Shown: in pieces, positions 6,467-17,032 of the stretch
How the letters are laid out: each line of letters opens with the position of its first letter
Numbering within the stretch: the first letter of the stretch is position 1
Source: Proteromonas lacertae
Taxonomy: Eukaryota > Sar > Bigyra > Opalinata > Proteromonadidae
DNA: 28,289 bases
Assembly: GCA_002245135.1 (NCBI GenBank)
Contig: NGBS01001229.1
Location: 1-28,289 of the forward strand
Direction of reading: 5' to 3'
Notes under the pieces: generated by a model
What the model was told of the DNA's origin: nothing
Databases searched by the model: none
The model's input: only the letters and a program-made list of their open reading frames with translations
Translations under genes and position numbers: made by a program

Positions 6467-9400
6467 ATGCGAGGTATTTTTTTGTATGTTATTACTTTTT
6501 TAATAGTAAAGAGAAAGTTAGTTCAAGTAGATAAAGTAGATAAAAACACCAAAAAACGAAAAATAGAAGATATAGCTGAAGATAAAGATGAAGAAGGTAT
6601 AGAAGAAGAAATGACAGAAATTATTCATACAGGTGTTGTTAATGTTGCTACAGAAGATTGTCTAATCTCCGAAAAGATGGAGAATAAGATTTATTATTTC
6701 AAATTCAAAGTAGAAAGCTTAACTGATGGTATTAGTTTTGGTTATCGTCTGAAAGAAGACTCAATGAGTGAAGATGATGCATTTGTCGTTTCAACAGTAG
6801 GAGATACATATGAAGTGATATATGATATGATTAACAAAAGAATGTCAATTAGACAAGGAAATAACAAAGAAGTGAGTGTATGTAGAATTAGTTCAGAGCC
6901 AGTTTACCCATATATTGGTGCTAGAAATGGTTCAGTTGAATATTTAAGCTGTTGGAATCTTCCATTACCTATGATAGAAAGATATACAATTGAGGATTGT
7001 GATATTAATACGAATCAAGATAAAAGTTGTAATGTAGTTAATTACATTAAAGTATATCAATGAATTGTACAGCATATGATAATAATGGCAGTAGTGGTGG
7101 TAATAAAATGGATGAAATTCAATATGTAGTGTGTAATCAGTTATTTCAAGATATACGTAATAATAAGTATTATTTTAAAATAAATGAAGAAATGAAAGAG
7201 AAAAGTGGAATTTATCATTTCTATTTTGAAATAATGAATGTTGGTAGTGACAAATATTAGATTTGGTTATACAATTGGAGATAAAGTAATAGTAAAAAAT
7301 GATATTGATCAGAATGGTGAGGTATATGAAGTTAAATATAATATGAATGAAAAGAAAATGTTTATTAAACAGGGAAATGGTATTGAAAAACTAGTGTATG
7401 AAAACTTACCTGCATCAATATATCCATGTATTAGTATTGGTGATAGAAAAGGTTTAGTGAAATTAATAGAATATTATATAGAGAAAAAGGATTATCACTT
7501 ATTTAATGCAATTAATATTGAAGATGGTAAAGCTGTAATACATGGAATAAAAGTACCAAATACTATTTGTAGTATATACAACTATGAAAAGTATTACTGG
7601 ATATCTGAACTATTATCAATCAAAGCCAATCCATCAAATATTGATATTAACGAAATAAAAGAAAGAATAGAAGATATATTTATATTAGATGAAATACAAG
7701 AAGAATATTTATCTAATAGTGATATAAATGATTTAATAATACTATTAACATATTTTGATGATGAAAATGCAAAGTACTTAGATTCTCCAGATAGTTTTTG
7801 TTAAAATAGTGAATAATTTGAATATAATTGAACTTACTAAACTCGATGAAGATGGTAATATTGAAGAAAGCGGTGAAACAAAGAAATATTTAGAGTTTTC
7901 AAAAGCCAATGTGAAAGTATTCCAGTTTCCAAAGAATATTATTTACATTAGAGATTGTTACTATTCAATGTTTAGAGATATATGTAAACTCTTATCACTT
8001 GATAAGATAAATTTCAATATAGTGATTACAGGTCAGCCAGGTATTGGCAAAACCTCTTTTATATATGTATTGTTGTTCTTTTTAAAGAATAATCTATCAT
8101 ATGATTATAGAGAAGAAGAAAAAGAATATTTGAAGAAAATACAGTTAATTAAAGAAAATAAAGAGATAGAAGAATTTCTGAATGAATTGAATAAAGAAAA
8201 GGAGAAAAGAATTGTTGATTTGAATATTGTAATAAAACAATTAGAAAAAGATATAGAAGAAAGTAATAAATCTATAAATGTTTTAAAAGAAAATATTAAA
8301 ACAGTATTTGACAGAATTAAAAGAATATATGATAAAGAAGTTGATCATAGTGATTTATACATTCATGAAGGATGTAAATATACAATGAAAATATATGATA
8401 AAGAAATACAAGTTCAGATATTATAAAATTTAACTGAAGACAATATGTGAAGGAAAATATAATTCTAATATTAAAGAAATAGAGAATTTGCATAAATATA
8501 TTAAAATAATTGATGATAAAGAATTGAATCAATTGAATAATTGGATAAAAAGGAAAAATTATAACGATGATGTTGTATTAAAATATGTAATTACAGATAG
8601 AATATTAAACAGTTTGATGAATATAAAGAAAATGAATGATTCAATAGAATTATATAACAAAAGAATTGGAGAAATTACTGGTGAAATTAATAGTATTAAA
8701 AAAGAATATAATAAAACCAGAAAAGTTGTGAAAAAGAAAGAAGATAAAATAATAGCTGAAATTGATAAAATAAAAGATGTTGAAGTAAAAGAAGAAAATT
8801 TAGGTATTGGATTTAATTATTATATTTTGGATGCTTGTAAAAAGATGAGAAGCATATATTTCATTAAAGGGAAGAGAATATGGTGATGTTGCAGAAACTC
8901 AAATATACAAGTTTGAAAAGATCAATGGAGAATATATTCTATTTAAAATCAAAATAAATCCACATGATATTAAAAATTCATTGATAATAGTTGATACTTA
9001 TAATGAGGAGTTTGATGAAAGTAACATAGTAATATCAATCAGTTCTCCTGATTCTAAAAATTATGAAGCATATATTGATAACAATACTAAATATTTATAT
9101 TTTGATACTTTAAATAAAAGAGAAATAGAAGAATGGTTTAAATATTGTATTAATTTTGATAAAGGTAATGAATTTGATGGAATATGTGAAAAGTATGGTA
9201 ATAATCCTCGACAAATATATTATCACTATTTGTATAAAGAAAACTATAATGGTGATTATTGGAAATATTATAAGCAGTTAATAGAAAGTGTAGTAGGAAC
9301 AACAGGTTATATTCAGTTTGTAAATGATTATATGGGAAAGTATGAATTGAAAGAATTATCTAACATTATATTAAAATATGATTTGGAAAAAGTATGGGAT

Positions 9401-11646: not shown

Positions 11647-11808
11647 ATGTGTCGTAAAGTTACTTGTTCAAAATGTGGAAAACCAACATGGGCTGGTTGT
11701 GGTAATCATATAGAGCAAGCATTAGCTGGAGTATAGTTTTAGAAACATTTTTTGAAATAGATTCCTGAAGCTGATCGTTGCCATTGTCCTAGAGATGATA
11801 AGAAGTGA
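11647..11808 (+). CDS. 43-residue Cys-rich conserved small protein
   Basis: Exon 1 11647-11730, a 30-nt intron 11731-11760 (GTATAG...AAATAG), exon 2 11761-11808. The protein starts MCRKVTCSKCGKPTWAGCG, continues NHIEQALAGIPEADRC and ends HCPRDDKK. It has six Cys (at C2, CSKC, C18, C-H-C) and two His, suggesting a small metal-binding fold. I recall near-identical short proteins (CxKCGKPTWAGCGxHxEQAL) annotated as hypothetical in fungi, plants and bacteria, but I could not search. The intron falls in phase 0 exactly between AG and IPEAD, restoring the conserved sequence. Function unknown. Confidence 0.8.
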
Positions 11809-12882: not shown

Positions 12883-13325
12883 TTACATTGCTTTCTTATA
12901 ATCCTCTAATACTTTATTAGCAACATCTACAGATATCATATCTTTAGAGTTTGGAGGTAATGTAAATAAATGATCATCACCTCTTCTTGGAATCAAATGA
13001 AAATGAACATGTGGAACTACTTGTCCGGCATCTTTACCATTATTTTGACATAGATTTACTCCTGTAACTCCTTCACATGTCTTAATAGCTTTTGTTATCT
13101 TCGAACATAAAGGAAGTATTTTAGCTGATACATCTTCTGGTAATTGATCTAAAGTTTCACAATGATGTTTTGGTACAACTAGGCAATGACCTTGAGTTAC
13201 TGGGAAGGCATCTAAAAAAGAAATCAAGTTTTCATCTTCATAAATCTATATATAGTTCGATATATAATAGATACTTTGAATGATGGAATTTCTCCTGATA
13301 TAATTTTGCAGAATATGCAAGACAT
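12883..13325 (-). CDS. HIT-family (HINT-like) nucleotide hydrolase or transferase
   Basis: Exon 1 13325-13275 (MSCIFCKIISGEIPSFK), a 29-nt intron 13274-13246 (GTATCT...ATATAG), exon 2 13245-12883; 137 residues, the normal size for HINT. Diagnostic segments: CIFCKIISGEIPS, YEDENLISFLDAFPVTQGHC, LVVPKHH, and the histidine triad VVPHVHFHLIPR whose central His is the nucleophile on the alpha-phosphate. The family hydrolyses nucleoside 5'-phosphoramidates such as AMP-lysine or AMP-NH2 in cytosol or nucleus. The intron removes an alternative frame and joins FK to IYEDEN exactly at the expected position. No frame shift. Confidence 0.92.
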
Positions 13326-13457: not shown

Positions 13458-16400
13458 TTATTCTTTTGCTCTCTGTTGTAAACCCTATTTATATCAATAT
13501 TTATGAAATATACATATTGAAGGACTTGGGCTAATTCTTCAGATGAATTACTGTACAAATATGGGAAACCAATATCTGCTATCATTCTTCTTAATTGTTC
13601 TACAGATAAACAAGTCAAATCATCGTATTCAATAGCTAAATGCTTTCTTTGCTTTCTATTGATAAAAAAATAAATCATATTTTTATAAATATACACCACA
13701 TTCTCAACGCAAAACCATACTAATTCTTCTTTTCTCATATTGCTAGGCATAGGAAGTAGCCAATCGTTTAAAAACAATCTTATTCCATCAACATCTAATA
13801 GAGTACACATGGTGTGTATTCTTCTTTCTTCTACTGATAATTCATTCATTTTCTTGATAGTTTGTTTTTCTTTACCATCTTTTTCTACTTCAGATTCAAC
13901 TTGAGGAGTTGTAGGTGTTGTAGACTCATTTTTTTCAATATTCAATTTTTGAAATTCATTATAACTAATCCAATCCCAAAAAGTATACCAATCCAACTGT
14001 CCATCTTTATCTACCAGTTTATCAATTGTATATTCCAATATATCATCACTTTCATCCTTATCAATGTTAGATGCTTTAAACAGTGATGATAATAATGTTT
14101 TGGTTTGTTCTCTATTCAGATATCCATGATGATTTGTATCTAATTCTTCAAACAGTATTCTAATATATATAATTAAATATAGACATATATATACCTTGCT
14201 CCTACTTCTAATCTCTCAATTTCATCTGCAATTTGTTTATTCTTTTCATTTATTTTTCCATATAATTTCTTATGAATTTTATTCCCTATATAATAAAATG
14301 CAAATCCACTTGCTAATGCAGCTGATGTGCAAATGGCTAAACCTGCAGAAGCTGGTAAACATAAACAAATTAATAATGCACCTCCAGCTGCAGAACCACT
14401 AGTCATTGCTTGCTGTCTCATATTCTGAATAAATTCTTTTCTTAATAGAATTGTATCTGCACTTGTTAATTTATTATTTTGCTTTTTCTTTCTTTGCTTA
14501 TCTCTATAATAATAATAATTATTATTATTATTATTATATATATTCATTATACTTATATATCATATATTCTTTACCTAAATCAACTAATACAGATGCTACA
14601 GCAAATGGTGCAGCAATTCTACCACTACTTTTAGCAATTGTTTTTAACGCCATTCCTAAACCAGCTTTTATTCCTGTATCTTTTGCACCTGCTAATGTAG
14701 TATCTATTGTCTGATATACTGCTTCTTCTATTATTTGATTGTCTAATAATTTATATCTTCTCAATATATCATCTATTATTTTCGTTGCTTCTCTATATAT
14801 AATAATTATTTGAATATAATATACTCCATTGTCATTAATTCAAATGAATTATATACATCTTTCTTAGCTAATTCAATCATATCTTCAGAAACTTCAGCTT
14901 CAATTGGATTATTCTTAGTAATATTCAAAAGTATTGTAAAATCTTTAGAATTGACTTTTGTACTACCATTTGTTAATAATAACTTTATATCTTCTCCATT
15001 TTCTAATAATAATTGATTGACATTATGATGAATTAGTATATTTACTAATAATCTGTCAATATATCCTCTTGTCATTGTCTTTATTACTCCACTCATATAT
15101 TTCTTCTTATGATAAACAGTGAGTTGATTCCATGCTTCTAATAATCCACAAATTGTACCTCCTAACAACATACTACCTCCAACAACAGCTAAACTCTATA
15201 AAATATATAATAATACATTAAAACATACATTAAAACCAGTAGTAAGAGACTTTGTTATTATTGTTGTATCACTTGCTGCTATTCCTGAAGAAGATGATGA
15301 TGATGTTGAAGTTGCTGCCTTTGATGCAGCAGATGATCCAGCTTTAGACGCTGCATTTGAAGCAGCAGTTGCTGATGCTCGTGCTGGTACTACAGTAATA
15401 GTTGGAGCAGCTAAATATATTATAAAAATATTTAACTTAATACAGGATGGTATTAAAGAATCTGGATCTATTCCTCTATTAACTAATGGATAATTCATAA
15501 ATCTTTTAAATAAATCAGTAAATAGAGCAGTAGCTTGTTCCTTTGTAATCTCTTTATCTACTTCAATTGGTTTGTGATTATACAAACTTTCTAAATATTT
15601 CGATCTTCTTTCTTCATTATCTAATACCTTAAATGATTCACTTATATAAATAAATGCATTAGCAAAATCTTCAATATTAATTCCTGGATGATTATATGCT
15701 TTATCAGGATGCCAAATTAATATTTCTCTTCTATACGATTGCTTAATAAGTTGAACAGAACAGTTAATTGGTAATTTTAATCTTGTGTATAAATTCATAC
15801 TTTCTCTTGGAGGCTAAAAATAGTTATAACAATAATAATAATAAAATACCAAATCTCTTTCAATAAACTGAAAAATATTGTAAAAATAATTCACTATAAA
15901 GTGTCTATTTAATGATTCCTTATTAGTTTCATATTCTAAACATGATAATATTCTTTTTTCATATTTTTCTTCCCAAAGAACAATATAATTATCATAAGGA
16001 TTAGAATTACACATATGGTAATTACACTAATTGATATTTATATATATATATATATATAATCATACAAAATAATATGTTCCAAGAGGTACATAAATAGCAA
16101 TTTTATTATCTATTACATTATCCATTACTAAAGAAGGTGAATTTTTAAGTAGTTCAGCAAATAAAAGATAATTAGAATCTGATAAATCAACAAAAGATTT
16201 TACATATGATGAAACTATAGATAATAAAGGAATTTTTTGGTAAATCTCTGCTATTATTTTAACTATTTATAAAATAGAATATTATATATATACTTGCTGC
16301 TTTTCTATTAGAAGATATTGGAATAATATCACCTTCATTAACAAAATTTATAAAATGTCTCTGAAAATGTTTCTTTATACAATTATCTACTACTTCTTTT

Positions 16401-17032
16401 GATAAACAAAGAGGATTTCCAAATGCAATACAATAAACATCAACATCTTTCTCATTGTAGTAATCACTAAATAACACAATTAATGTGGATAATGTAGCTA
16501 CAGCTCCACCTAGAGAATGTCCACAGAAGATAAGTCTTTTACCCTTCGATTTAGCAAGTAGATATATTGATAAAATATCAACTGATTTGGCTCTTTCATA
16601 AAATCCTTTGTGTATTTTACCACCAAATTGTTTTTCTGAGATAAGAGTGAAATCCGTTGTAATATCAATCGTATCTGACATCTGTGTACCTCTGAAGCAT
16701 AAGAATATAGAGGTATTGCTTTCTACTAATACTGCTCTTGCTTCTGGTTCATACTGTATGTATTTCAATGTAGTATTCTCTTTAATCCATTTTGATATCT
16801 CATTTTTTGTTGTAGCCATTGCTAAATACAACGCAGAATACAATTCACCTATGTAAATGTCATCGAAGAATATTTTTTCCTTACTATTCTCAAAACCAAA
16901 TAGTTCAGGTTGAGTCTTCTTACAATATATATCTGATCAAGTAGAAAAGACAAATATACATTCACTTCTACTTGCTTTTATACGTTCTGCTTCCATATGA
17001 GCATTCTTTAGTAATACACTTACAAATACCAT
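13458..17032 (-). CDS. Class-3 lipase - J-domain - EF-hand fusion protein (12 exons)
   Basis: Exons on the minus strand: 17032-16960, 16932-16294, 16262-16066, 16026-15850, 15813-15444, 15410-15229, 15195-14825, 14792-14553, 14503-14195, 14159-13695, 13655-13514, 13484-13458; 1,063 residues. All 11 introns are GTAT-AG (27-49 nt) and every join keeps frame. Residues about 90-300 are lipase_3: FRGT (104-107), nucleophile elbow GHSLGG (Ser164), INFVNEGDIIP (Asp226); I did not find the catalytic His. A J domain follows (about 369-440) with LIWHPDK (HPD 397-399), which should stimulate an Hsp70. Then a Ser/Ala-rich linker, helical Gly-rich hydrophobic segments, and EF-hand-like loops LDTNHHGYLNREQ (from 860) and LVDKDGQLD. 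The EF loops lack the final Glu. Substrate and location unknown; membrane association is likely. Splitting into several genes is possible, but no stop separates the parts. Confidence 0.8.

Follow-up and report, generated by a model that had tools for sequence, protein, structure and literature searches.

A class-3 lipase fused to a J domain in Proteromonas lacertae, and its relatives in oomycetes

On contig NGBS01001229.1 of Proteromonas lacertae (the window: the whole stretch of 28,289 nucleotides that was analysed), one long spliced gene is read as joining a class-3 lipase domain to a J domain, hydrophobic segments and EF-hand-like loops. Three questions are raised by this locus: whether these parts belong to one gene and one protein, whether the combination is found elsewhere, and what such a protein could do.

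Gene model, allele and paralogues

The gene was rebuilt independently from the sequence. It starts at 17032 and stops at 13458, and the model obtained is identical to that of the initial annotation (11 short GTAT-AG introns, one 1,063-residue gene; Table 1). The introns are 27-49 nt long; 11/11 have GTAT at the 5′ end and AG at the 3′ end. They had been described as in phase, which is true in the sense that splicing preserves the frame; the intron length is divisible by three for 6 of the 11. The motifs named at that stage (GHSLGG with S164, FRGT, D226 and HPD) were all found on the rebuild. The lipase-J fusion is confirmed as genuine; the sequence shows a single frame after splicing, the domain order, conservation, the conserved residues and HPD. 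The earlier proposal is judged right in reading one gene and one protein, made up of lipase, J domain, hydrophobic helices and degenerate EF hands, with a membrane as its plausible site.

Table 1. Features of the lipase-J gene in the window (a)
Feature	Residues	Positions	Strand	Support (b)
Whole gene, 12 exons	1-1,063 (1,063 aa)	13458..17032	-	Rebuild; frame backed by allele C226 and paralogue C188
Lipase_3 core	102-233	16307..16702	-	Pfam E 1.7e-19; genome profile search agrees on coordinates
Ser164 codon, putative nucleophile of GHSLGG	164	16514..16516	-	Relatives: S 63, A 1, gap 3
Asp226 codon	226	16328..16330	-	Relatives: D 65, gap 2
His345 codon, proposed catalytic His, exon 4	345	15901..15903	-	Relatives: H 65, gap 2
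Intron 4, separates lipase and J parts		15814..15849	-	C188 intron of equal phase, 1 pairwise column off (3 in the multiple alignment)
J domain	369-435	15595..15795	-	Pfam DnaJ E 1.6e-9; genome profile search agrees on coordinates
HPD motif	397-399	15703..15711	-	HPD in 64/67 relatives, gap in 3; absent in C188 and C1172
First hydrophobic segment, VVGG motif	547-566	15136..15195	-	Hydropathy; VVGGAVxxG aligned in oomycetes
Second hydrophobic segment, Gly/Ala-rich	787-814	14311..14394	-	Hydropathy; oomycete G-rich stretch longer
EF-hand-like pair	853-924	13946..14196 (intron 14160-14194 within)	-	Pfam EF-hand_7
C-terminal motif MCTLLDVDGIRLFLNDW...EELVWFCVENV	965-1007	13697..13825	-	MCSLLSxxGLxxFL...HEDLHxLAL aligned in oomycetes
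a Positions are those of the window. b Relatives: n = 67. C226, C188, C1172: contigs of the same genome (see text).

The genome assembly comprises 50.2 Mb in 1,181 contigs, and the window contig is referred to as C13. Contig C226 is 98.4% identical to C13 across 3,396 bases, and its copy reads as the other allele of the window gene. Over 3,192 exon bases, 17 substitutions (10 synonymous, 7 nonsynonymous; pN/pS 0.18) and no indel separate the two; both indels found within the gene (n = 2) are intronic. HPD is also present in C226.

A paralogue on C188 is collinear with the window gene. Its initial model ended early; when other splice choices were tried at three places, four combinations exceeded 900 aa. 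The longest has 996 aa and 11 introns, this exact intron count depending on model choice since a 12th, optional intron is found in two of the other three. Its phases (1,1,0,0,1,0,2,2,2,2,0) are all 11 phases of the window gene. Intron positions are shared exactly for 7/11 and within 2 pairwise columns for 10/11; the fifth C188 intron falls in a poorly aligned linker. C188 retains the first J helix and lacks HPD, and Pfam DnaJ is undetected in its model. The paralogue on C1172 retains MDLYTRLKLP, and HPD was not seen in it. Both retain the lipase and the remainder of the protein despite this loss, so J function is dispensable in some copies. In a tree built from 21 rows of the 69-row alignment, the branch of C188 measures 2.73 vs 0.75 for the window gene: the loss of HPD accompanies fast change.

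Profile matches across the genome number at least 17 for Lipase_3 and at least 53 for DnaJ. Among the matches listed, compared by eye, a DnaJ match lies within a lipase gene only on C13 and C226. The C-terminal motif also occurs on C188, C1172 and C116. The C116 gene (L022) is lipase-like, with GYSYGG in place of GHSLGG followed by the shared C-terminal motif. A degenerate copy of the gene's C-terminal region, interrupted by many stops, lies at C205:48178-48636, and a run of several lipase_3-like stretches, in some of which the GxSxG motif is altered, at C158:152500-162400 (L013).

Other genes were observed in passing. In the window, some 130 bases downstream of the lipase-J stop, the minus strand encodes a HIT-type protein (named by eye) at 12883-13325, with a short intron from 13274. 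A small CxxC protein of 43 aa lies on the plus strand at 11647-11808; its frame requires a 30-nt GTATAG...TAG intron. Elsewhere in the genome, C158:69282-70883 (L028) encodes a TPI-GAPDH fusion in a single open frame of 567 residues; TPI and GAPDH domains are also close together on C172 and on C778, the latter with stops. In PMC3527533, this fusion is described as widespread in stramenopiles and as found also in three cercozoans and an apusozoan; as a marker it suggests, short of proof, a stramenopile. With ribosomal protein L3, by contrast, Tetrahymena and plant entries rank highest among the best 60 of 73 matches.

Relatives in oomycetes

The initial annotation knew of no described protein with this domain order and proposed a domain-architecture search in protist genomes. 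The search is positive and the supposed absence does not hold. The whole window protein, compared with about 5.8 billion proteins, gave one match at E ≤0.01, from Pythium insidiosum (3.7e-30); the protein model of this match begins within the lipase domain. A search from the P. insidiosum protein gave at least 66 proteins, query included. Their precomputed Pfam lists in public records contain Lipase_3 and DnaJ for 38, DnaJ only for 25, Lipase_3 only for 2 and neither for 1. Every organism-labelled protein among the 66 is from an oomycete (several have no organism label); since scoring in each protein search was limited to the 7,986-7,996 candidates with the most words in common, relatives outside the oomycetes may have been missed. 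The genera include Phytophthora, Pythium, Saprolegnia, Albugo and others. A search from P0065 gave six proteins: five already found and a new one, P0067 (no organism label). A fusion unique to this locus is ruled out by the public oomycete proteins carrying both domains.

The similarity extends over the whole protein. In BLAST, the window protein matches that of P. insidiosum in three main pieces, whose order is conserved (3e-28, 3e-11, 3e-4). An alignment of the window gene, C188 and eight chosen relatives shows collinearity all the way from lipase to C-terminal motif; the eight have 22-25% identity to the window protein. They belong to an uncharacterised family of oomycete "J domain-containing proteins"; examples are P0014 (Phytophthora nicotianae), P0047 (P. 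infestans) and P0063 (Saprolegnia diclina), the last with a Lipase_3 score of 20.9 bits, slightly under the cut-off of 22. The order common to these proteins and the window protein is: lipase_3, J domain with HPD, VVGG segment, LVDIGKEYxxY, G-rich hydrophobic stretch, EF-hand-like pair, MCSLL motif. The window protein is shorter than the oomycete ones (mostly 1,200-1,500 residues), and the stretch that folds as a Tudor-like barrel in the oomycete model is missing from it. Judged from these alignments, the window gene is a member of a conserved family also present in oomycetes.

This family is not recognised in the titles and abstract openings of the papers listed on lipases, J domains and oomycete domain combinations; the Saprolegnia domain-combination table (PMC3681718) may list the order. 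The protein would thus represent an undescribed kind of J-domain protein fused to an EDS1-type lipase, though present in the public records of many oomycete species.

Candidate functional parts

Lipase_3 (PF01764) scores 70.6 bits, above its curated cut-off of 22. The Ser and Asp of its catalytic set are in place, as the initial annotation had stated; the third residue, unnamed there, has His345 as best candidate. The canonical lipase His directly after the YxP motif was considered and rejected: no His is found at that place, and H345 is invariant in the 10-row alignment. Of the four EDS1 profile alignments printed, one reaches H345 and pairs it with a His; three end earlier. The fold alignments (EDS1, fungal lipases) terminate at H345, where the model has a pLDDT <50. 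His345 is the weakest assignment of the putative Ser164-Asp226-His345 set. In P0061 (Aphanomyces cochlioides), the Ser of the lipase motif is replaced by Ala (GHA), which suggests that this copy is a lost hydrolase.

The closest solved fold to the lipase domain is that of EDS1, and the domain is assigned to the EDS1-type lipase fold. With EDS1/PAD4 the window protein shares the class-3 lipase fold, the Ser and Asp at their places and a YxPxGTYxF motif; the His is probably shared as well. It differs by its J domain, its hydrophobic segments and its EF-hand-like pair. The C-terminal EP domain of the EDS1 family is not among the 10 Pfam families matched by the window protein (E ≤1). Fungal class-3 lipases (Rhizomucor miehei, Thermomyces) are secreted, single-domain and devoid of the helical insert.

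DnaJ (PF00226) scores 38.2 bits, HPD included, above its curated cut-off of 27.8. P0058, a long oomycete protein, has a gap at the HPD position. Class C J proteins are defined by a J domain with HPD attached to unrelated domains; the window protein resembles them by its HPD-bearing J domain fused to such domains. To our knowledge, no class C J-domain protein with a lipase has been described.

The loops had been called EF-hand-like, and the term is apt because EF-hand_7 (PF13499; E 8.8e-6) scores 26.4 bits, below the cut-off of 30. The classical 12-residue EF-loop pattern is failed by the window loop and passed by 11 of 68 rows, so that calcium control via this pair is weakly supported. Two full-length models are weak (pLDDT 60.7, pTM 0.39; pLDDT 67.7, pTM 0.32). 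For the C-terminal half, none of 136 Foldseek matches reached E ≤0.001, which is no proof of a new fold.

Proposed reading and alternatives

The preferred reading, given a probability of about one half, is as follows. The protein would be a membrane-tethered, probably catalytic EDS1-type lipase. The N-terminal lipase domain, with its putative triad and helical insert, would face the cytosol. The neighbouring HPD-bearing J domain would recruit and stimulate cytosolic Hsp70. The Gly-rich hydrophobic segments would anchor the protein in a membrane, and the EF-hand-like pair with the conserved C-terminal motif would constitute a regulatory or partner-binding end. Local Hsp70 may work the access to a lipid or acyl substrate, or the assembly and turnover of the hydrolase; put otherwise, its target might be substrate access, the enzyme's own state or a bound partner. 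A cytosol-facing head tethered to a membrane is the simplest reading because no signal peptide is obvious by eye at the N terminus, a J domain is expected to act with cytosolic Hsp70, and hydrophobic segments lie downstream. Lipid hydrolysis, the recruitment of Hsp70, anchoring in a membrane, the cytosolic orientation and regulation are all inferred. A more specific version is doubtful: a stramenopile Hsp70-coupled membrane lipase, whose attached J domain would bring Hsp70 to the bilayer so that an ATP-driven chaperone feeds or controls hydrolysis, the HPD-less paralogues being uncoupled.

Two alternatives each take away one activity. The lipase fold might be a non-catalytic scaffold, the protein serving chiefly to position Hsp70 as a J protein of the membrane; this is rather unlikely. 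The plant EDS1 lipase-like domain is described in PMC6377607 as such a scaffold, so a retained triad is no proof of catalysis; EDS1 being the closest solved fold, this favours the scaffold, as does the Ala of the Aphanomyces protein. It is opposed by the conservation of Ser, Asp and His among relatives (Table 1), where all exceptions but one are gaps. Conversely, the lipase might be active and the J domain a mere leftover structural spacer. C188 and C1172, which keep the lipase and the rest without HPD, and the undetected Pfam DnaJ of C188 point in this direction; the presence of HPD in the window gene, in its allele and in nearly all relatives, and the association of its loss with fast change in C188 (in the 21-row tree), make it improbable.

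Other explanations concern the nature of the whole protein. An EDS1/PAD4-like signalling node, with a small ligand bound at the lipase fold and relayed by the helical C-terminal part, agrees with the EDS1-type fold and with the conserved C-terminal motif; the lack of an EP domain match in the Pfam results for the window protein speaks against it, and it is held very improbable. Least credible is a misjoining of two adjacent genes via read-through. MNLYTRLKLP does start with Met; however, the identical order is found within single public oomycete proteins and C188 has an intron of equal phase between lipase and J domain, on which grounds the two-gene reading is rejected, and the alleles are free of exon indels.

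If the preferred reading of a membrane-tethered, J-domain-bearing lipase is true, Hsp70 would be tied directly to membrane lipid chemistry. The family would place the EDS1-type lipase fold in a setting outside plants, and its HPD-less paralogues would be natural material for testing the contribution of the J domain.
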